Shown in pieces: positions 3,677-36,595 of a DNA stretch of 64,000 nt. The DNA is from Phycisphaerales bacterium (lineage in GTDB: Bacteria > Planctomycetota > Phycisphaerae > Phycisphaerales > UBA1924), in contig JALHOJ010000007.1 of assembly GCA_022843045.1 (NCBI GenBank), positions 1-64,000 on the forward strand. Direction: 5' to 3'. The position numbers and the translations under genes are program-made. Positions within the stretch are counted from its first letter, which is position 1. Every line of letters starts with the position of its first letter. The notes beneath the pieces were generated by a model. That model saw only the letters and a program-made list of their open reading frames with translations, did no database searches and was not told the origin of the DNA.

Positions 3677-4258
3677 ATGAAGTGCGACCACTGCGAGAAA
3701 GACGCCACCGTGCACGAACTCTCCGTGCACAACGGCGTCAAGATCGAACGGCATCTCTGCGAGCAGTGCGCCGAGCAGTTTGGCGTGAGTGTCCACCCCC
3801 AGCAGCAGATCACCGACCTCATCAAGCACTATGTGATGAAGCAGGGCCTGACGCCCGTCGTGCCGCCCATGGCCCAGCCGATGCGGGCCAACCAGTGCCC
3901 CACCTGCAAGACCACCTACCAGGAATTCAAGCAGCATGGCCTCCTCGGCTGTGCAGATTGCTATCGCAACTTCGAGGGCCAGCTCACGCCCCTTGTCGAG
4001 CGTGCCCACGACGGCGGCGTCGCTCACGTGGGCAAGACTCCCAAACGAGCCGCGGGCGCGCCCGTCGAAGCAGATGACAGCGCGGTCAAGGCCCTGCGCG
4101 AGCATCGCATGGAACGCATCCGCGTCCTGCGACACGAATTAGAGCAAGCCGTCCGCGACGAGCGATACGAAGCCGCGGCTCGCCTTCGCGACCAACTCCG
4201 CCAAGCCGAGAACGAGCCCGAGCAAGCCAAGAAGGCACCCGAAGGCGGTGACGCGTGA
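3677..4258 (+). CDS. mcsA: McsA-like UvrB/UvrC-motif protein (activator of protein arginine kinase)
   Basis: N-terminal CxxC pairs MKCDHCEKDATVHE...HLCEQCAEQ, CPTCKTTYQEFKQHGLLGCADCY, C-terminal UVR motif. Confidence 0.85.
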   Translation: MKCDHCEKDATVHELSVHNGVKIERHLCEQCAEQFGVSVHPQQQITDLIKHYVMKQGLTPVVPPMAQPMRANQCPTCKTTYQEFKQHGLLGCADCYRNFEGQLTPLVERAHDGGVAHVGKTPKRAAGAPVEADDSAVKALREHRMERIRVLRHELEQAVRDERYEAAARLRDQLRQAENEPEQAKKAPEGGDA

Positions 4259-5415
4259 GCCAGCCCGCCCCTCAGCCCGCGCCGCAGAACCCCGACGACG
4301 CCCCAAAATCCGCCACCAACGTCCCGGCACTCGAAGTCGGCGCGGAGTGGCTGCGGGGCGAGGGCGAACTGTCCGACGTGCTGCTTTCCTCGCGCGTGCG
4401 GCTTGCCAGAAATCTCGCCGGGAGACTCTTCGCGACCAAGGCCACCCGCCGCGACCGCCAGGAAACCCTCGATGTCTGCCGAGAGTGGCTGATGCGCGCC
4501 GAGCTCGCGTCGAAGATGATTTGGGTGGACCTGCACGGCTCCTCGCCCCTCGATCGCGCATTGCTGGTGGAGCGGCATCTCATCAGCAAGAACCACAGCA
4601 AGGGCAAAGGCACCAACCCCAACGAAGACCCGCGAGGCGTCGCCATCAGCGTCCCTGACGAGCGCCTCTCGATCATGATCAACGAAGAGGACCACCTCCG
4701 CATCCAGGCGATTCGCAGCGGCCTCTCGCTCTCACAGGCCTGGGCCGACATCGACAGCGTCGACGACAAGATCGAAAGCAAGCTCGACTACGCCTTCAGT
4801 CCGCGCTTCGGCTATCTCACGGCGTGCCCGACCAACGTCGGCACGGGCGTGCGCATGAGCGCGATGCTGCACCTGCCCGCGCTGCGACTCACCGGCGAGC
4901 TTGAAAAAGTGAAGCGTGCCGCCCAGGACATGAGCCTTGCCGTGCGCGGGTTCTATGGCGAGGGCAGCGAAGCGGTGGGGGACCTGTTCCAGATCAGTAA
5001 CCAGACCACCCTGGGCAAGAGCGAGCAGCAGATTCTGCAGGACCTCGAGGGCGACATCCTGCCCAAGGTCGTCGAGTACGAACGCCTCGCACGCCGGGAA
5101 CTGCTCGCCAAGCGCCGCGTGGGACTCGAAGATCAGGTCTGGCGCGCCTGGGGCGCGCTCAGCAACGCCCGCCTCATGAACACCGATGAAGCGATGCAGG
5201 CCCTGAGCCTCGTGCGACTGGGCGCGACCATGGGCCTGCTCCGCGGCGCATCGGGCACGCAGGACTCGCCCGACCCGCGCACCATCAACCAACTCATGCT
5301 GCTGGTGCAGCCGGCCCATCTGCAGCGGGCCGTGGGGCGTGAACTTGACCAGGAGCAACGCCGGGTTGCACGCGCGTCGCTGCTCCGCTCGCGGCTGCTT
5401 CGTCCCAAGTCGTAG
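4255..5415 (+). CDS. mcsB: protein arginine kinase McsB
   Basis: VLLSSRVRLARNLAGRLF, SIMINEEDHLRIQ, ACPTNVGTGVRMSAMLHLP; 4-nt overlap with mcsA. Confidence 0.92.
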   Translation: MSQPAPQPAPQNPDDAPKSATNVPALEVGAEWLRGEGELSDVLLSSRVRLARNLAGRLFATKATRRDRQETLDVCREWLMRAELASKMIWVDLHGSSPLDRALLVERHLISKNHSKGKGTNPNEDPRGVAISVPDERLSIMINEEDHLRIQAIRSGLSLSQAWADIDSVDDKIESKLDYAFSPRFGYLTACPTNVGTGVRMSAMLHLPALRLTGELEKVKRAAQDMSLAVRGFYGEGSEAVGDLFQISNQTTLGKSEQQILQDLEGDILPKVVEYERLARRELLAKRRVGLEDQVWRAWGALSNARLMNTDEAMQALSLVRLGATMGLLRGASGTQDSPDPRTINQLMLLVQPAHLQRAVGRELDQEQRRVARASLLRSRLLRPKS

Positions 5416-5436: not shown

Positions 5437-7257
5437 ATGCGCCTCGCGCTCGCCACCATCAACCCCACTGTCGGCGACGTCGCCGGGAACGCCGCGTTGC
5501 TCCGCGCCGCGGTCGCCAGCGCTCATGCCGCCATTGCTGACATCATCCTGTTGCCAGAACTCGCGTTGTGCGGGTATCCGCCCAAGGACTTGCTGGCGCG
5601 CGAGGGATTTGTTGAGTCGTGCGAACAGGCCGCGAAGGGCATCGCCGCCGATGCGCCCCGAGGCATCACCATCGTCTTCGGCTTGCCGCTTCGGATAGCC
5701 AAGGGGCCCAACGCTGGTGCGTGCGCGAATTCCCTGATTGTCGCGCGCGATGGTGTGATCACCGATCGCTACGACAAGCAGCTCCTGCCTACCTACGACG
5801 TCTTCGACGAAGACCGGTACTTTGAGCCAGGCGACCAAAGCGTTGCACTTGATGTGCCGACACGCGACGGCAGCGTGCGTGTCGGCCTCACCATCTGCGA
5901 GGACCTCTGGATGGGCGAGGACGCCGGCTTTGCGACGCGATACAAGGGCCACGCCGATCCCGTCGAGCAACTTACCGCACGCGGGGCGAAGGTCATTCTG
6001 TCCGCCAGCGCGAGCCCCTTTGTGCTCGGCAAGGGCCAGAAGCACCGCGACATCCTCGCGGGCCATGCGAAGCGTCACAAGGTCGCCGTCGCCTCCGTCA
6101 ACCAGCTCGGTGCCAACGACGAACTCATCTTCGATGGCCATCGATATCTCTTCGCCCCCGATGGCTCCCTCGCCGCGGCGGGCAGCCTCTTCGACGACGC
6201 GCTGCTCGTGGTGGACGTTGATGCGTCTGGTGTAGTTCGATCACGACAGAGCCACAGAGACACAGAGAAGGAAGGAGAGGAGAAGAAGACGACGGGTGCA
6301 GGTGCATCTTCGTCACCGTCTCACCGCCTCACCGTCTCACCGTCTCACTCTGCCCCCGACGCCGCCCACCTCCACCACGCCCTCGTCCTGGGAGTCCGCG
6401 ACTACCTCCGCAAAACTGGCTTCAAGCAGGCCATTCTGGGCCTCTCCGGCGGCATCGATTCCGCTCTCACCGCTGCGATCGCCGTCGCGGCAATCGGCGA
6501 GCAGAACGTCACCGGCTACGCCCTCCCCGGTCCTTATAGCAGCGAGCACTCCATCACCGACGCCCTCGCCGTGGCGAAGACCTTGGGGATGCGCTGCGAC
6601 GTCGTGCCCATCGCCAAGCCCATGCACGGCTTCCGCGACGCCATTGACCATCAGTTCGCATCGATGGGCACCACCACGCTGGGCGAGAAGCTTCCCGACC
6701 TCACCGAAGAGAATCTCCAATCGCGCATCCGTGGCACGCTCCTCATGGCGATCTCGAATCGCACCGGCGCGATCGTTCTCACCACCGGCAACAAGAGCGA
6801 AATGGCCGTGGGCTATTGCACGCTGTATGGAGACATGAACGGCGGCCTCGCCGTGCTCAGCGACGTGACTAAGCACTGGGTCTATGCGCTTTCGCGGTTC
6901 ATCAACGCCAACTACAAGTCGCTCCCGGGCCTCACGCACTGCACCGCGCCCCCGATCCCCGAGAGCACACTCACCAAGCCCCCCAGTGCCGAGTTGCGAC
7001 CGAATCAGACCGACCAGGACTCGCTCCCCCCCTACGACGTGCTCGACGAGATCCTCGCCCGCAGCATTGAGCGCCACCAAAGCCCCGCGACCATCGCTCG
7101 CGAGACCGGCTTCGACCGCGCGCTGGTTCAGAAGATCGCCCGGATGATCGACCTTGCGGAGTACAAGCGTCGTCAGGCCGCGATGGGTCTGAAGGTCACG
7201 ACAGTTGCCTTCGGCACGGGTCGGCGCATGCCCATTGCCCAGCGCACCGTTAGGTAG
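5437..7257 (+). CDS. nadE: glutamine-dependent NAD+ synthetase
   Basis: Nitrilase-type N-domain (LPELALCGYPPKDLL, TICEDLWM) plus synthetase GLSGGIDSALTAAIA, TTGNKSEMAVGYCTLYGDMNGG, LPPYDVLDEIL. Confidence 0.95.
   Translation: MRLALATINPTVGDVAGNAALLRAAVASAHAAIADIILLPELALCGYPPKDLLAREGFVESCEQAAKGIAADAPRGITIVFGLPLRIAKGPNAGACANSLIVARDGVITDRYDKQLLPTYDVFDEDRYFEPGDQSVALDVPTRDGSVRVGLTICEDLWMGEDAGFATRYKGHADPVEQLTARGAKVILSASASPFVLGKGQKHRDILAGHAKRHKVAVASVNQLGANDELIFDGHRYLFAPDGSLAAAGSLFDDALLVVDVDASGVVRSRQSHRDTEKEGEEKKTTGAGASSSPSHRLTVSPSHSAPDAAHLHHALVLGVRDYLRKTGFKQAILGLSGGIDSALTAAIAVAAIGEQNVTGYALPGPYSSEHSITDALAVAKTLGMRCDVVPIAKPMHGFRDAIDHQFASMGTTTLGEKLPDLTEENLQSRIRGTLLMAISNRTGAIVLTTGNKSEMAVGYCTLYGDMNGGLAVLSDVTKHWVYALSRFINANYKSLPGLTHCTAPPIPESTLTKPPSAELRPNQTDQDSLPPYDVLDEILARSIERHQSPATIARETGFDRALVQKIARMIDLAEYKRRQAAMGLKVTTVAFGTGRRMPIAQRTVR
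6241..6352. repeat. GA/CT-rich imperfect palindrome in frame within nadE
   Basis: GAGCCACAGAGACACAGAGAAGGAAGGAGAGGAG ... CACCGTCTCACCGCCTCACCGTCTCACCGTCTCACTC; translates to SHRDTEKEGEEKKTTGAGASSSPSHRLTVSPSHS between the two enzyme domains. Confidence 0.8.
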
Positions 7258-8694: not shown

Positions 8695-8721
8695 GGGGGA
8701 AGAGACGCAGAGACAAAGAGC

Positions 8722-8760
8722 CGGAGAGACGAAGTGAAGGCGCAGCACTTCGTCTCTCCG
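8722..8760. repeat. intergenic CT-rich palindrome, 15-bp perfect stem
   Basis: CGGAGAGACGAAGTG / CACTTCGTCTCTCCG with 9-nt spacer, followed by TCTCTCCGTCTCTTCC. Confidence 0.85.
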
Positions 8761-8780
8761 TCTCTCCGTCTCTTCCTTCT

Positions 8781-10509: not shown

Positions 10510-13500
10510 TCACACCCCGCACAGCGTGCAAGGCCCTTCGCTGAACACAATCAGAAAGCTGTCAATGTCGCACGGATCAAACAGCGCCGCGTCGTTGTTG
10601 AAGTCGATGTCGTTGCAGGTGGCCGTCCCGGGCACGCACGGCCCCTCGCTGAACACGCTGAGGAACGCGTCGATGTCCTGAGGATCAAAGAACGACCCAT
10701 CGTTGTTGAAGTCAATCGAGCCGCACTCGGTGCCCGTGATCGTGAGCAGCACGGTGGTGGGGGTGTAGCTGACGCTGACCGTCACCGCGCTGGGGCCGAT
10801 CACCTGCACGCTGCTGAACACGCCCGTGCGTGTGTTATTGGTGCGGGCGATTTCATAGACGTCGCCGATCTTGGGCAGGAAGGGCGGCGTGATCACCACA
10901 CGGAGGGCCCCGGCAAGGCTCATGTTGCCGTTCGACAGAATCCGATCGCTGGGCAGGTTCGGACGGCCAAAGAGCGAGACTTCATACGTGCCGCTGGCGT
11001 TCTGCGTGTATGTGCCGCCGATGGTGAGCGTGCCGCTGTTGGATGGGGAGTCGCCCGGAGCCACGGTTGCGCCGGAGTTGGTCACCGCCTGGCCGAGCGT
11101 GCCGCGGCCTTCGAGGCGACCGCCAGCGAAAGCAAGAGGGCTGCCGGTGATCGACGCTCCGCTGCGGACCAGCGTGCGTGCTGCGGGTGCGGATTGCGTG
11201 AAGGTGCCGGAGATGGAGGCGGTGCCTTCAACCACATCGATGAGGCCCGAGTTGGTGAGCGGCAGGTTGGTGGTGAAGGTAGCGGCAGCGGTCTTGAGCA
11301 GCGTGCCGCTGTTGATGAGGGCATTTGTGCCACCGTTCGCAGCGAAGTTGATCGATCGAACATCGAGCGTGCCTTGGTTGGTGAAGATCATGCCAGTGAA
11401 GAAGCGGTTGTTGGAGTTTTCAACCCATGTGCCAGTGTTCGTAACTGCACCGACGTAGGTAAGGTTGCCCGCACCCGACGTGGAGAGGCTACCCGCGTTG
11501 GTGAGCGAGTTACCTACGCCACCGGCGGCGATGTTGCCCAACATGGCGAAGGGCTGGGCGGTGTTGATGATGGCGTTGCCGCTGGCGGTGATTGTTCCGC
11601 CGCTGCCGATGGCACCGGTGCCGGTTGCACGAAGCGTGCCAGCGATGATCATGTTGTTCAAGTGGACGGTTCCTGGAGCGGAGATATTGAAGGCCGCAGC
11701 ACCGTTGCCTGTGTACCTCGTGCTGTTGAAGTTCACAGTGCCGTCAAGCACATTAAACGCAGCGTTGTTGGTGAAGGGGATGTCGGTGGTCGCAACGACC
11801 GCGGCGGTCTTTCGGACGGTTGCGTTGTTCGTGAGGGTGTTGGTGCCTCCGTTGGCTGCGAGGTTGATGGATTGCAGCTCCCAAATGCCGTTGTTCACAA
11901 ACGATGCGCCGGTGTAGAAGCGGTTGTTGCTGTTCTCGATCCAGGTGCCGTTGTTGCCATTGACGATGGGGCCGACGTAGCTGAGGTTGCCTGCACCGCT
12001 GGTGCTGACGAGGCCCTGGTTCGTGAGGCTGTTGCCAGCATTGACGGTGACGTTGCTCAAGACTTGCAAAGGCGATGTGGTCGTCGTCGTGACGTTGCCG
12101 GACACGGTGAGGGTGCCTGTGCTGGCGAAGCTGCCCGCACCCGTGCAGTTGACGGTACCGGCGAGCGTCATGGTGTTGAGGTTGAGCGTGGCGCCGCTGG
12201 AAACGTTGATGTTTGCTGCGGGCACGGCGGTGTAGGTGGTGGAGTTGAAGTTCAGCGTGCCGCCTTGCACGTTGATGGTGGCGTTGTTGGTGATGGGGAT
12301 GTCGGTCGTTGCCGTGACAGCACCGACTTTGCGCATCGTGGCGTTGTTGATGAGCGAGTTGGTGCCGCCATTGGCAGCGAGGTTGATGGACTGCAGCTCC
12401 CAGATGCCGTTGTTCACGAACGACGCGCCGGTGTAGAAGCGGTTGCTGCTGTTCTCGATCCACGTCCCCGTCGCAGCATTGGTGAGCGTGCCCTGATAGG
12501 TCAGGTTGCTTGCGCCGCTGGTGCTGAGCAGGCCAGTATTCGTCAGGCTGTTGCCAGCGCCAACGGTGACGTTGCTGAAGAGGCGGAACGCGCTGGTGGT
12601 GTTGAGCGAAGCGGCGCCAACTACACCCAGCGAGCCAGCGCTTGTCAGCGTGCCCGCACCGGTAAAGTTGATGGTGCCGCCGATGGTCAAGTTGTTGAAA
12701 TTGCAGGCTGCGCCAGATGCGACCGAGACGCTGCCCGATCCGACGCCCGTGTACGCCAAGTTGTTGAGGTCAAGCGTGCCTGCTTGCACGTCGATGAGCC
12801 CGCTGTTGCTTATCGCGATGTTGCACGTTGACGTACCGCCAGTGGTCTTGCGAATCGTCCCGCTGTTGGCAATGCTGTTGGTGCCACCATTTGACACGAG
12901 ACCGATCGTTTGCAACTCAAGCACGCCCGCGTTGGTGAACGCGCAGCCCGTATAGAAGCGGTTGTTGGAGTTCTCAACCCACAGGCCTGACGCGGCGTTG
13001 GTGATAGGGCCGCTGTAGCTGATGTTCCCTGCACCGCCCGTGTTGACGCGGTTGTTATTGGTAAAGGATGAGCCGGGAATCGCGTTGGCGTTGAGGTCGC
13101 CGCTCAGGCGCAGGTTGCTGGCGACGTTGAAGATCGTTGCGCCGGAGGCGACAACGGTTCCGCTGCTGTTGATTTCGCCCACGCCTGTGGCGTTGATGCG
13201 GCCCACGAGGGTGTAATTGCTGAGATTGAGCGCTGCGCCGCCGCCTGCGACGGCGATGGTTGAGGTGGGTGAGCCCGTGAACGTGGTACTGAAGATGGTC
13301 AGGACGCCACCTGCTTGCACATCGATGCTGCCGTTGTTGGTGACGGGGACGTTGATGCTGGCGGTGCTGCCGCCGGACTTACGAAGGGTGCCCGTGTTGG
13401 TGTAACTGTTGGAGCCGCCGTTGGTGATAAGGTCGATGGATTGCAACTCAAGCGTACCGGCGTTAGAAAAAGACACACCCGCCAAGAAACGAGTGTTGCT

Positions 13501-13980
13501 GTTCTCGACCCAGGTTGCGCCGCCGCTGTTGGTGAAGGGGCCAACATACGAAGTATTGCCGCTGCCGCTGGTGTTGACCGAGCCGTTGTTGGTGAACCCG
13601 TTGCTCGTGGTCATGTTGTTCTGAAGCGCGAAGCTCACACCCGCGTTGATCGTGACCGAGCGCACGTTTGGAACGAAGTTGTTGAGCACGCCGTTCACGC
13701 CGAAGACCACGTCGTCGGCAGCGCCTGGGAAGAGCGGCGTGGCGTTGCAGGCGGTTTGTGCCCAGTTGTTGCGAGAGAGGACGCCGCCGACGCCGCAACT
13801 GCCGGGGGCGAGGTTGCAGATGGTGCCCCATGTATTGTCGCAAAGCGGGGTGAAGGTGAAAATCGCCGCCTGACTGCTCGCGGCACCCGCGAGGAGTGCC
13901 AGCAACCCGGCGGACCTGATCGTGCGGGAGGTGGAAACGGGGAAGGAACGATTGGAGGAACGAACGCGCGTGGTCTTCAT
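10510..13980 (-). CDS. large exported repeat protein (beta-solenoid type) with C-terminal GC-type dockerin repeats
   Basis: Signal peptide; five repeats containing NNRFxTGxxFxNxGxxELQSIxxxxNGGTNxxxNxxTxRK; C-term CGSIDFNNDGSFFDPQDIDAFLSVFSEGPC...CNDIDFNNDAALFDPCDIDSFLIVFSEGPCTLCGV. Confidence 0.85.
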   Translation of the reverse strand: MKTTRVRSSNRSFPVSTSRTIRSAGLLALLAGAASSQAAIFTFTPLCDNTWGTICNLAPGSCGVGGVLSRNNWAQTACNATPLFPGAADDVVFGVNGVLNNFVPNVRSVTINAGVSFALQNNMTTSNGFTNNGSVNTSGSGNTSYVGPFTNSGGATWVENSNTRFLAGVSFSNAGTLELQSIDLITNGGSNSYTNTGTLRKSGGSTASINVPVTNNGSIDVQAGGVLTIFSTTFTGSPTSTIAVAGGGAALNLSNYTLVGRINATGVGEINSSGTVVASGATIFNVASNLRLSGDLNANAIPGSSFTNNNRVNTGGAGNISYSGPITNAASGLWVENSNNRFYTGCAFTNAGVLELQTIGLVSNGGTNSIANSGTIRKTTGGTSTCNIAISNSGLIDVQAGTLDLNNLAYTGVGSGSVSVASGAACNFNNLTIGGTINFTGAGTLTSAGSLGVVGAASLNTTSAFRLFSNVTVGAGNSLTNTGLLSTSGASNLTYQGTLTNAATGTWIENSSNRFYTGASFVNNGIWELQSINLAANGGTNSLINNATMRKVGAVTATTDIPITNNATINVQGGTLNFNSTTYTAVPAANINVSSGATLNLNTMTLAGTVNCTGAGSFASTGTLTVSGNVTTTTTSPLQVLSNVTVNAGNSLTNQGLVSTSGAGNLSYVGPIVNGNNGTWIENSNNRFYTGASFVNNGIWELQSINLAANGGTNTLTNNATVRKTAAVVATTDIPFTNNAAFNVLDGTVNFNSTRYTGNGAAAFNISAPGTVHLNNMIIAGTLRATGTGAIGSGGTITASGNAIINTAQPFAMLGNIAAGGVGNSLTNAGSLSTSGAGNLTYVGAVTNTGTWVENSNNRFFTGMIFTNQGTLDVRSINFAANGGTNALINSGTLLKTAAATFTTNLPLTNSGLIDVVEGTASISGTFTQSAPAARTLVRSGASITGSPLAFAGGRLEGRGTLGQAVTNSGATVAPGDSPSNSGTLTIGGTYTQNASGTYEVSLFGRPNLPSDRILSNGNMSLAGALRVVITPPFLPKIGDVYEIARTNNTRTGVFSSVQVIGPSAVTVSVSYTPTTVLLTITGTECGSIDFNNDGSFFDPQDIDAFLSVFSEGPCVPGTATCNDIDFNNDAALFDPCDIDSFLIVFSEGPCTLCGV

Positions 13981-16090: not shown

Positions 16091-19000
16091 ATGCCCAAAC
16101 GCACCGACATCAAGACCATCCTCGTCCTGGGTTCCGGTCCCATCGTCATCGGCCAGGGCTGCGAGTTTGACTACTCGGGCACGCAGGCCTGCAAGGCCCT
16201 CAAGGCCGAGGGCTACCGCATCGTGCTGGTCAACAGCAACCCAGCGACGATCATGACCGATCCGCAGTTCAGCGATCGGACCTACATCGAGCCTATCACG
16301 CCCGAGTGCGTCCGCAAGATCATCGAGCTCGAACAGCAGCGCGGCCCGCGCATTGACGCCATCCTGCCCACCCTGGGCGGCCAGACCGCGCTCAACTGCG
16401 CCTGCGCCCTCTGGGACAACGGCACGCTGAAGGAATTCGGCATCGAGATGATCGGCGCCAACCGCGAGATCATCCATCGCGCCGAAGACCGCCAGATCTT
16501 CAAGGACATCTGCGAGAAGATCGGACTCACCCTCCCCAAAGCCAAGACCGTCAACACCCTCGCCGACGCCGAGGAGTTCCTCAAGGAAATCGGCCTCCCC
16601 GCGATCATCCGCCCCGCCTTCACGCTGGGCGGCACGGGCGGCGGCATCGCCTACAACCTCGAGGAATACCGCGACATCGTGACCCGCGGGCTCGCTGCGA
16701 GCATGATCACGCAGGTGCAGATCGACCAGTCCGTGATCGGCTGGAAGGAATTCGAGCTCGAAGTCGTCCGCGACAAGAAGGACAACTGCATCATCGTCTG
16801 CGGCATCGAGAACATCGATCCCATGGGCGTCCACACGGGTGACAGCATCACCGTCGCGCCGATTCTCACGCTCACTGACAAGGAATATCAGGCCATGCGC
16901 GACGCGGCTCTCGCGATCATGCGGGCCGTGGGCGTCGAAACAGGCGGCAGCAACGTCCAGTTCGCCGTCAACCCCAAGCCCAAGCCCCGTGCCGACGGTT
17001 CCCTGCCCTTCGAGATGGTCGTGGTCGAGATGAACCCCCGCGTCTCTCGCTCCAGCGCGCTCGCCAGCAAGGCGACGGGCTTCCCAATCGCCAAGATCGC
17101 CGCCAAACTCGCGATTGGCTACACCTTGGACGAACTCAAGAACGACATCACCGGCACCACCAGCGCGTGCTTCGAGCCCGCCATCGACTACATCGTCGTG
17201 AAGATGCCCCGCTGGACGTTTGAGAAGTTCCCCGAAGCCGACGAAACGCTCACGACCCAGATGAAGAGCGTCGGCGAAGCCATGGCCATCGGCCGTACCT
17301 TCAAGGAAGCCCTCCAGAAGGTCATCCGCTCCATGGAAGTCAAGCGTTTCGGCCTGGGGCTGGATCGCAACGACCGCTGGCTCACCGCCATGCGCGCCAT
17401 CGAGCACGACCAGTTGGTCCTAGACGTGATGGGCTCCCCCGACTCCGTCACTTCGTCACTGCGTCACTCCGTCGCTTCCCAAAGCGACACCGGCCTCCGC
17501 ACCGCCGACGGCCAGCCCATTGAGTGGCCCATTCCCCACGAAAAACTCTCGCGCAAGCTCGCCGTGCCCAGCCAGGGCCGGCTCTACTACATCCGCTACG
17601 CGATGAAGATGGGCTGGAGCATCGAGAAGATCCACGCCCTCACCAACATCGACCCCTGGTTCCTCGACCAGATCCAGCAACTCGTCGAGTTTGAAGACAC
17701 CCTCACCGACTACAAGACCCTCGCCGACGTCCCCGCCGACGTTCTCATGGAAGCCAAGCAGCTCGGCTACAGCGACGCCCAGCTTGCCAACCTCTACGAA
17801 GGCACCATCACCACCGACGCCATCCTCAAAGTCCGCGCCCACCGCAAGAGCCTGGGCATCAACCCCGTCTACAAGCTCGTCGACACCTGCGCCGCCGAGT
17901 TCGCGGCGATCACGCCATATTACTACTCGACGTACGAAACAGGTAGCCGCTCCATCGGCCCGAATGCCGAATCCCGAATCCCGAATCCCGTCTCGCCTGC
18001 TGAAGACGAAGTCCGCATCACCGACAAGAAAAAAGTTATCATCATCGGCGGTGGCCCCAACCGCATCGGCCAGGGCATCGAGTTTGACTACTGCTGCGTC
18101 CACGCCGCCTTCGCCGCCAAGGAACTGGGCTTCGAAAGCGTGATGATCAACTCCAACCCCGAGACGGTCAGCACCGACTACGACACCAGCGACCTGCTGT
18201 TCTTTGAACCGCTGACGTTGGAAGACACGCTCAACGTGATCGAACGCCTCAACGCGAAGTCCTCCGCCGTCCACGGCGTCATCGTCCAATTCGGCGGCCA
18301 GACGCCCCTCAACCTCGCACACGGCCTCCAGCAAGCCGGCGCACCCATCATCGGCACCTCCGTCGACTCCATCGACCGCGCCGAAGACCGCAAGCGCTTC
18401 GACGAGGTCCTCGACACCCTCAAGCTCCAACGCCCCGCCGCCGGCACCGCCCGAAACCTCGACGAAGCCCTCGCCGAAGCCAAGCGCATCGGCTACCCCG
18501 TGCTCATCCGCCCCAGCTACGTCCTGGGAGGCCGCGGCATGGAAATCTGCCAGGACGAAGCCGCTCTCCGCAGCTTCATCGGCACCGCCTTGAAGCAAGC
18601 CGGCGCCGACAACGCCCCCGTCCTCATCGACAAGTTCCTCGCCGGCGCAACCGAAGTCGACGTCGATGTGGTTGCTGATTACGGCACGTCTGACGAACGA
18701 CGCATTGGTGGATTCGAGGTACGCGGAGTCGCAGGGAACTCCAGCGATGTCGAAAGCGCTATCGCCCAACTAGCCGTGATTGGGGTCACGTCCGGCATTC
18801 TCTGGGGCACAACCCACCTCAATCCCAACGGTCTTCGCATGCTCGCTGAGTCTTCTGACGGGCGACTCTTCCTTGTTGATCCCGCGAAAAGAGAAGCGCC
18901 CAAAGACGTGTCAGAGTTTCGTGCCACACTCGCGAAGCAATGGCAGTCAATTCTGCCCGGCGTCTCGCCGAGCAACGAACCATCAATGACTACGGCTGCC

Positions 19001-34815: not shown

Positions 34816-34827
34816 ATCGAAGAGAAT

Positions 34828-35032
34828 CACCACGGAGGGCCACAGAGAGCCACGGAGATTGCACGGAGAGAAGACAGAAAGAGTGGCCGCGGATCTGCGC
34901 GGATTCGCGCGGATAGGAAAGAACCCTGTCTTGATCCGCGTCAATCCGCGCAAATCCATGGCCACTCTTTCTGTCTTCTCTTGTCTCTTCTCTCCGTAGA
35001 AGCTCGGTGGCTCCCCGTGGTCCTCCGTGGTG
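34828..35032. repeat. 205-bp imperfect inverted repeat
   Basis: Ends CACCACGGAGG / CCTCCGTGGTG; inner 20-bp perfect arms AGAAGACAGAAAGAGTGGCC (34869-34888) / GGCCACTCTTTCTGTCTTCT (34960-34979). Confidence 0.9.
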
Positions 35033-35051
35033 AAATCCGCATTCCCCTCGC

Positions 35052-36460: not shown

Positions 36461-36595
36461 AACGCAGAGGAAGACAGAGAGGCTGAAAAGAGCAAGACAG
36501 AGAGACGGTGGTGGGGTGCCGTGCCAACGCATTCGCTGCTATCCGCGAAGCTCTCTGCGTTCCTCTGCTTCTCTCTTCCTTCTTCCTCTGCGTTC
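36461..36595. repeat. intergenic GA/CT-rich imperfect inverted repeat
   Basis: AACGCAGAGGAAGACAGAGA ... CTCTCTGCGTTCCTCTGCTTCTCTCTTCCTTCTTCCTCTGCGTT. Confidence 0.85.

Follow-up and report, generated by a model that had tools for sequence, protein, structure and literature searches.

In-frame octameric hairpin repeats as putative linker DNA in NAD+ synthetase and other genes of a Phycisphaerales bacterium

Rickettsia is the main known source of in-frame palindromic repeats, to which scattered REP cases can be added. The Rickettsia RPEs are the classic palindromes read in frame (Ogata et al. 2000, reviewed in PMC10969869). As described in that review, they are dispersed, lie in frame in unrelated housekeeping genes and add a peptide with no evident harm to the protein; they form families of ~150 bp with a conserved encoded peptide and belong to obligate intracellular hosts (PMC10969869). 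Intragenic REPs are documented for the GTAG and CGTC superfamilies, Opitutus terrae being one of the hosts; most copies in these superfamilies are intergenic and some are genic. The genes concerned include those for DNA repair, DNA polymerase I, tRNA synthetases and pseudouridine synthases; in two species, recB carries the repeats at roughly the same position (PMC3733652). Coding palindromes have also been described in nematomorph mitochondrial genes, as inverted repeats within functional genes; there both arms encode conserved protein and no dispersed repeat is inserted (PMC6649704), whereas the extra residues discussed here lie in variable loops. The phenomenon is thus known. What is new here is octameric hairpins with repeated occupation of the same sites, affecting several housekeeping genes at once in a planctomycete known from metagenomes alone.

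The window analysed is the first 64 kb (64,000 nt) of contig C7 of a draft genome of 4.08 Mb in 147 contigs, which orthologue searches place among the Phycisphaerales, Planctomycetota. On the plus strand, nadE (5437..7257, with the ATG at 5437 and the stop codon ending at 7257) encodes a glutamine-dependent NAD+ synthetase of 606 aa that is present as a single full-length copy in the genome. Pfam assigns CN_hydrolase (PF00795) to residues 1–265 and NAD_synthase (PF02540) to residues 312–578 (numbering from 5446), giving the nitrilase-type glutaminase and NAD synthase domains with the catalytic residues of this enzyme class. Residues E41, K114 and C154, which we take to be the usual glutaminase triad of the nitrilase family, and the SGGIDS loop are invariant or nearly so in an alignment of 14 orthologues, and by sequence both catalytic domains are intact. 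When the protein is aligned with solved NAD synthetases, the first aligned domain stops at 264 and the second restarts at 309, leaving the linker as an unaligned gap. The earlier note had placed the peptide SHRDTEKEGEEKKTTGAGASSSPSHRLTVSPSHS (residues 272–305; 6250..6351, plus strand) between the two domains, and both the Pfam boundaries and this gap bear that out. An AlphaFold2 model computed from the 14 orthologue sequences (pTM 0.81) gives pLDDT below 50 for residues 271–306 (block means 28–38), flanked by well-predicted domains, and the linker is accordingly predicted to be disordered.

At the DNA level, the foreign-looking segment covers ~115 nt (6235–6350, plus strand). Its start had been put at 6241; we move it to 6235, where homology to a repeat family begins with GTTCGAT. 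The base counts agree with the description of a purine-rich arm followed by a pyrimidine-rich arm (21 A, 20 G, 7 C and 1 T at 6249–6297; 23 C, 13 T, 6 A and 6 G at 6305–6352). The reading of the segment as a GA/CT palindrome does not stand. Aligned with the reverse complement of the pyrimidine half, the purine half scores 12.5, a value reached by 251 of 500 shuffles, and the palindromic look is a consequence of base composition. The two halves belong instead to two repeat families. Local alignment matches the purine half (6235..6286, plus strand) to the left arm of hairpin family A, GTTCGAT...CACAGAGACACAGAGA...GGAGAGGAGAAGA, with a score of 29.5 that includes the GTTCGAT end, and the pyrimidine half (6313..6348, plus strand) is an octamer array, (TCACCGTC)n, that matches family C with a score of 34; none of 500 shuffles does as well in either case. 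The linker DNA is therefore a composite of half of a family A hairpin and a family C octamer array. The segment has 50 related places in its own genome, itself included, and the family C pattern CCGTCTCACCGTCTCAC has 52 matches there, and 5 when it is reversed as a control. By a dicodon score whose training set was the long ORFs of this genome, the element reaches −3, −2 and +6 per 60 nt, compared with +4 to +21 elsewhere in the gene and ~+12 across most of it. As DNA the element does not stand out in folding (z 0.01), as RNA it folds slightly better than shuffles (z −2.3, a modest value), and an Rfam search of the window returned no match.

A linker is present between the same anchors in all 89 distinct NadE orthologue sequences, ranging from 19 to 61 aa (median 29) compared with 57 here; in some lineages lengths reach 61–77 aa. 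Repeat DNA therefore lengthened or replaced a pre-existing variable linker. The proposal that repeat DNA had been converted into a tolerated linker is well supported by repeat families found across the genome, by at least eight further genes with copies in frame, by the low coding score, the predicted disorder and the intact domains, but the repeat did not create the linker. None of the 89 sequences carries the same linker peptide in a distant genus. A single congener, G003, shares the family C octamer at this place in nadE, as a pyrimidine array without the purine half, and more distant genomes carry other repeats there, namely AAACCCG heptamers with GGGAC-type repeats in G040 and CCACTCCT in G013. 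Repeats of period 7 to 10 (at least 17 of 20 positions) are present in 5 of 89 linkers and in 0 of 89 upstream domain segments, although the latter are longer than the linkers (one-sided p = 0.03).

Two other accounts of the linker can be weighed against these comparisons. A variable linker may have grown in place by replication slippage, with no dispersed repeat inserted. This would fit the variation of NadE linkers in length and sequence, the tandem nature of the pyrimidine half, which slippage could extend, and the array of G003 that has no purine half. We nevertheless regard it as improbable, since the octamer is dispersed in the genome and also found between genes, its unit length is indivisible by 3, the purine half fits the family A arm up to its GTTCGAT end and similar inserts occur in unrelated genes. 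It is also conceivable that the linker serves a selected function, such as passing on ammonia or making contacts between subunits, and that the repeat DNA was retained as an improvement to the enzyme. The recurrence of long linkers in some lineages, up to 61–77 aa, speaks for such a role; an unconserved linker sequence, a length range of more than threefold, the predicted disorder and similar inserts in unrelated enzymes make it very improbable.

Hairpins were counted in 61 stretches totalling 1.24 Mb, ~30% of the assembly. Some of these stretches were picked for known matches, so that densities are not unbiased, and detection was ungapped, so that counts are lower bounds. On this basis, 45 biased-arm hairpins are purine-first and 1 is pyrimidine-first (p = 1e-12). 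The arms are often 8-bp periodic, with purines on the 5′ side and pyrimidines on the 3′ side, and fall into several families: A, CAGCACAGAGACACAGAGATCAGGAG..., whose loops look unrelated between copies; B, (GAGACGRA)n; C, (GGTGAGAC)n; D, GCGCGGAT; E, AACGCAGAGGAAGACAGAG; and F, CCACAAAGACACAAAGA. In the window, an intact intergenic family B hairpin with 28-nt arms and a 9-nt loop lies at 8709..8773 (DNA fold z −5.6), nested family D hairpins lie in an intergenic gap at 34827..35033 and a family E hairpin lies at 36461..36594, all three unstranded. With gene positions taken from a custom gene caller on a draft metagenome assembly, and with tests resting on small sets, 38 of the 45 hairpins are intergenic, and gaps between divergent genes seldom hold one (2/36 gaps divergent versus 122/569; p = 0.02). 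A first pattern census was noisy for weak single matches (53 clusters versus 28 in the reversed control), and a loose scan for purine-then-pyrimidine runs inside genes (27 RY versus 21 YR) was too noisy by itself and served only for finding candidates. Contigs C6, C18, C40, C71, C78, C107 and C122 begin or end in octamer arrays, and copy number and array length are therefore probably underestimated.

The hairpins resemble REPs in being numerous, dispersed, mainly intergenic palindromes that are scarce between divergent genes, in the overlapping kinds of genes that contain them and in the same-site cases; they differ in having no GTAG/CGTC tag, longer octamer-periodic arms and RAYT genes that stand beside another repeat (PMC3733652). 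The GTAG and CGTC tags were each found at the stem ends of 1 of the 45 hairpins (controls 1.4 and 8.0). A PF01797 profile search of the genome gave two strong loci for RAYT-type Y1 transposases, G000:C35:39600-39944 and G000:C53:4663-5007 (regions L160:3300-4330 and L161 around 3900-5300), flanked by a GTAG-type repeat of the GTAGCCACGGGT type, and purine-first hairpins were found at the flanks of neither. With neither the tag nor the RAYT association, the hairpins fall outside the GTAG/CGTC REP families; in how they work they are like RPEs and intragenic REPs. The RAYT genes and their GTAGCCACGGGTGGAGCG / CCCCTCCGGGGC repeats form an ordinary REP/RAYT pair of their own, apart from the purine/pyrimidine hairpins.

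RAYT as the mover of the hairpins is unsupported, the local genes being flanked by a different REP. A flanking direct repeat of at least 6 nt, the target-site duplication by which a MITE would be recognised, was seen at 0 of 45 hairpins (9% in controls), and neither the flanks of the two RAYT loci, nor hairpin tags, nor target-site duplications pointed to a mover. Cyanobacterial STRRs, heptanucleotide tandem repeats that are dispersed in the genome and differ in copy number, offer another likeness. Like the octamers, they consist of short tandem units whose length three does not divide; they are not known as purine-first hairpins translated within many proteins.

In-frame repeats are found in valS, dus, mfd, rarA, polA, carB, an RluA-type gene and an MBL hydrolase gene; the MBL, Dus and RluA-type labels, like that of a DnaE-like gene below, come from sequence motifs and conservation among relatives. 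Family B hairpins are in frame in ValS (where the repeat reads GARDEETKRSRDEVGAGGGETSSLRLSVSPSLL), the MBL hydrolase, Mfd and RarA, unrelated proteins as in the case of RPEs. Within the window, carB contains two in-frame inserts on the plus strand, an octamer repeat (TCACTTCG-like; 17438..17479) of 14 residues between aligned blocks and a heptamer repeat, (AATCCCG)n, of 22 residues (17942..18007) where E. coli CarB is shorter. The extra residues of NadE, ValS, the MBL hydrolase, RarA and Mfd are gaps relative to relatives or PDB chains, those of PolA and CarB are gaps relative to PDB chains, and the Dus repeat region is variable among relatives. In DNA polymerase I, an insert of (CATTTGGC)-like units (L132:8109-8223) lies directly 5′ of the HDELVFE motif; a position adjoining a catalytic motif is an unexpected one.

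Compared with the RPEs covered by PMC10969869, the hairpins described here have 7–8-bp periodic arms, unrelated-looking loops, genome-specific units and a Phycisphaerales host, a separation that is made by description, and the nadE copy itself is not self-complementary. One could also suppose that misassembly joined a repeat into nadE, as the assembly is a draft and several contig ends consist of these repeats. This is scarcely credible: nadE lies inside a 91-kb contig with both domains matching one orthologue in frame, all the conserved genes listed above keep their frame and repeats turn up at the same sites in relatives that were assembled independently.

Why such inserts would be tolerated can be approached through the stop codons. 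Every stop codon needs T and A. A purine arm free of T, or a pyrimidine arm free of A, therefore contains no stop in any frame of either strand. Since the unit is 8 nt long, each frame yields the same 8-residue cycle, RDEETKRR from one arm and SLRLSVSP from the other, and for this reason look-alike inserts appear in different proteins. In the 1.24-Mb sample, family B hairpins have a mean of 4.3 of 6 frames open and 4 of 7 lie inside genes, whereas family A hairpins have 1.9 frames open on average and 0 of 15 lie inside genes (Fisher p = 0.005 for the genic share). Random segments of the same length have 3.4 frames open in this GC-rich genome, so that B is somewhat above and A clearly below that value. 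The nadE copy agrees with such a stop filter in part. Its family A half is stop-free purine sequence and family C is represented by its stop-free pyrimidine side only, the family C purine arm having TGA every 8 nt and thus being closed to read-through. As a counterpoint, the DNA in nadE is of families A and C, whereas the genic copies are dominated by the stop-free family B.

The reading that we favor, and consider quite likely, is that selfish palindromic repeats hit permissive loops and that stop-free arms survive there as disordered spacers. The scheme would begin with repeats that are dispersed as purine-first hairpins and are, as observed, mostly intergenic. A hairpin landing in a gene would persist only while the reading frame stays open, and insertion at a loop or domain boundary would, by sequence logic and structure prediction, yield a hydrophilic disordered spacer. 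NadE would be expected to work as usual with its longer linker, and the linker repeats are predicted to be translated as a loose spacer between working parts of the protein. We infer the act of insertion and its boundaries; no target-site duplication was found. The same loops, which are observed to be shared among related species, would be hit again, presumably independently, by whichever repeat is active there.

The comparison between genomes shows that the octamer units are genome-specific. Dimers of GGAGTACC number 66 in G001 and are absent from the present genome (G000), and GAGACGRA occurs 149 times in G000, 30 times in G011 and at most twice in each of the other 29 genomes. The MBL site in G001 holds a (GGAGTACC)n hairpin. 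The RarA site contains AAAGTGGC in G001, CATTCGG in G003 and AATCCGG in G028; the Mfd site has a CACTTCGT array in G001 and a degenerate purine/pyrimidine pair in G003; and the Dus site in G001 has CACTTCGT. The ValS site of G001 holds a REP-like insert that belongs to a different class and resembles the repeats beside the RAYT genes. Within the genus, both occupied and empty sites occur. The most economical reading of these sequences would be a small number of insertion-tolerant loops that are hit repeatedly by the active repeat.

Alternatively, the elements at shared sites may be ancestral, their octamers having been swapped later, by conversion, for the repeat active in each genome. The RarA, Mfd and Dus sites are occupied in G000, G001 and G003 (in part weakly), and the sole near match to the family C pattern in the whole G003 genome is in nadE, as this alternative would have it. 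Against it stand the insert of another class at the ValS site of G001, the mixture of empty and occupied sites within the genus and a tree that does not group G003 with G000 but places G003 outside G000+(G001,G002) with 90% support. We consider ancestral occupation with conversion a minority possibility, about one chance in a few. Returning to repeated insertion, its fullest version combines a mobile octamer-periodic purine-first hairpin, species-wise turnover of the unit, arm asymmetry selected for readability in any frame and protein loops serving as reoccupied safe sites; we put this combination forward tentatively, as it is doubtful in its entirety.

A literature search on planctomycete octamer hairpins found no description, and a tag-less, octamer-periodic, purine-first hairpin with differing units in congeners, as the sequences suggest it, was not found described. 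The stop-proof arms would offer a simple reason for tolerance, and orthologous loops carry different repeats in related species; these features open the origin of new protein linkers from selfish DNA to comparative tests. They also yield a list of loops that accept 12–40 extra residues.

Several further observations concern repeats outside this argument. G011, which represents another genus of the family, has GAGACGRA octamers while the congeners have almost none, and a DnaE-like gene of G011 contains the GAGACGRA repeat as well; horizontal spread is a possible explanation of this sharing. A dispersed inverted repeat, ACGAAACGCGACCGTGAGGGAGCGTC, without octamer periodicity is present at L139:11129-11215, L199:19216-19323 and L124:3955-4076. 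Finally, four direct repeats of ~300 nt, 60–77% identical and spaced by ~520 nt, lie at 11711–13579 of the window in a long minus-strand ORF, which probably encodes a repeat-domain surface protein.
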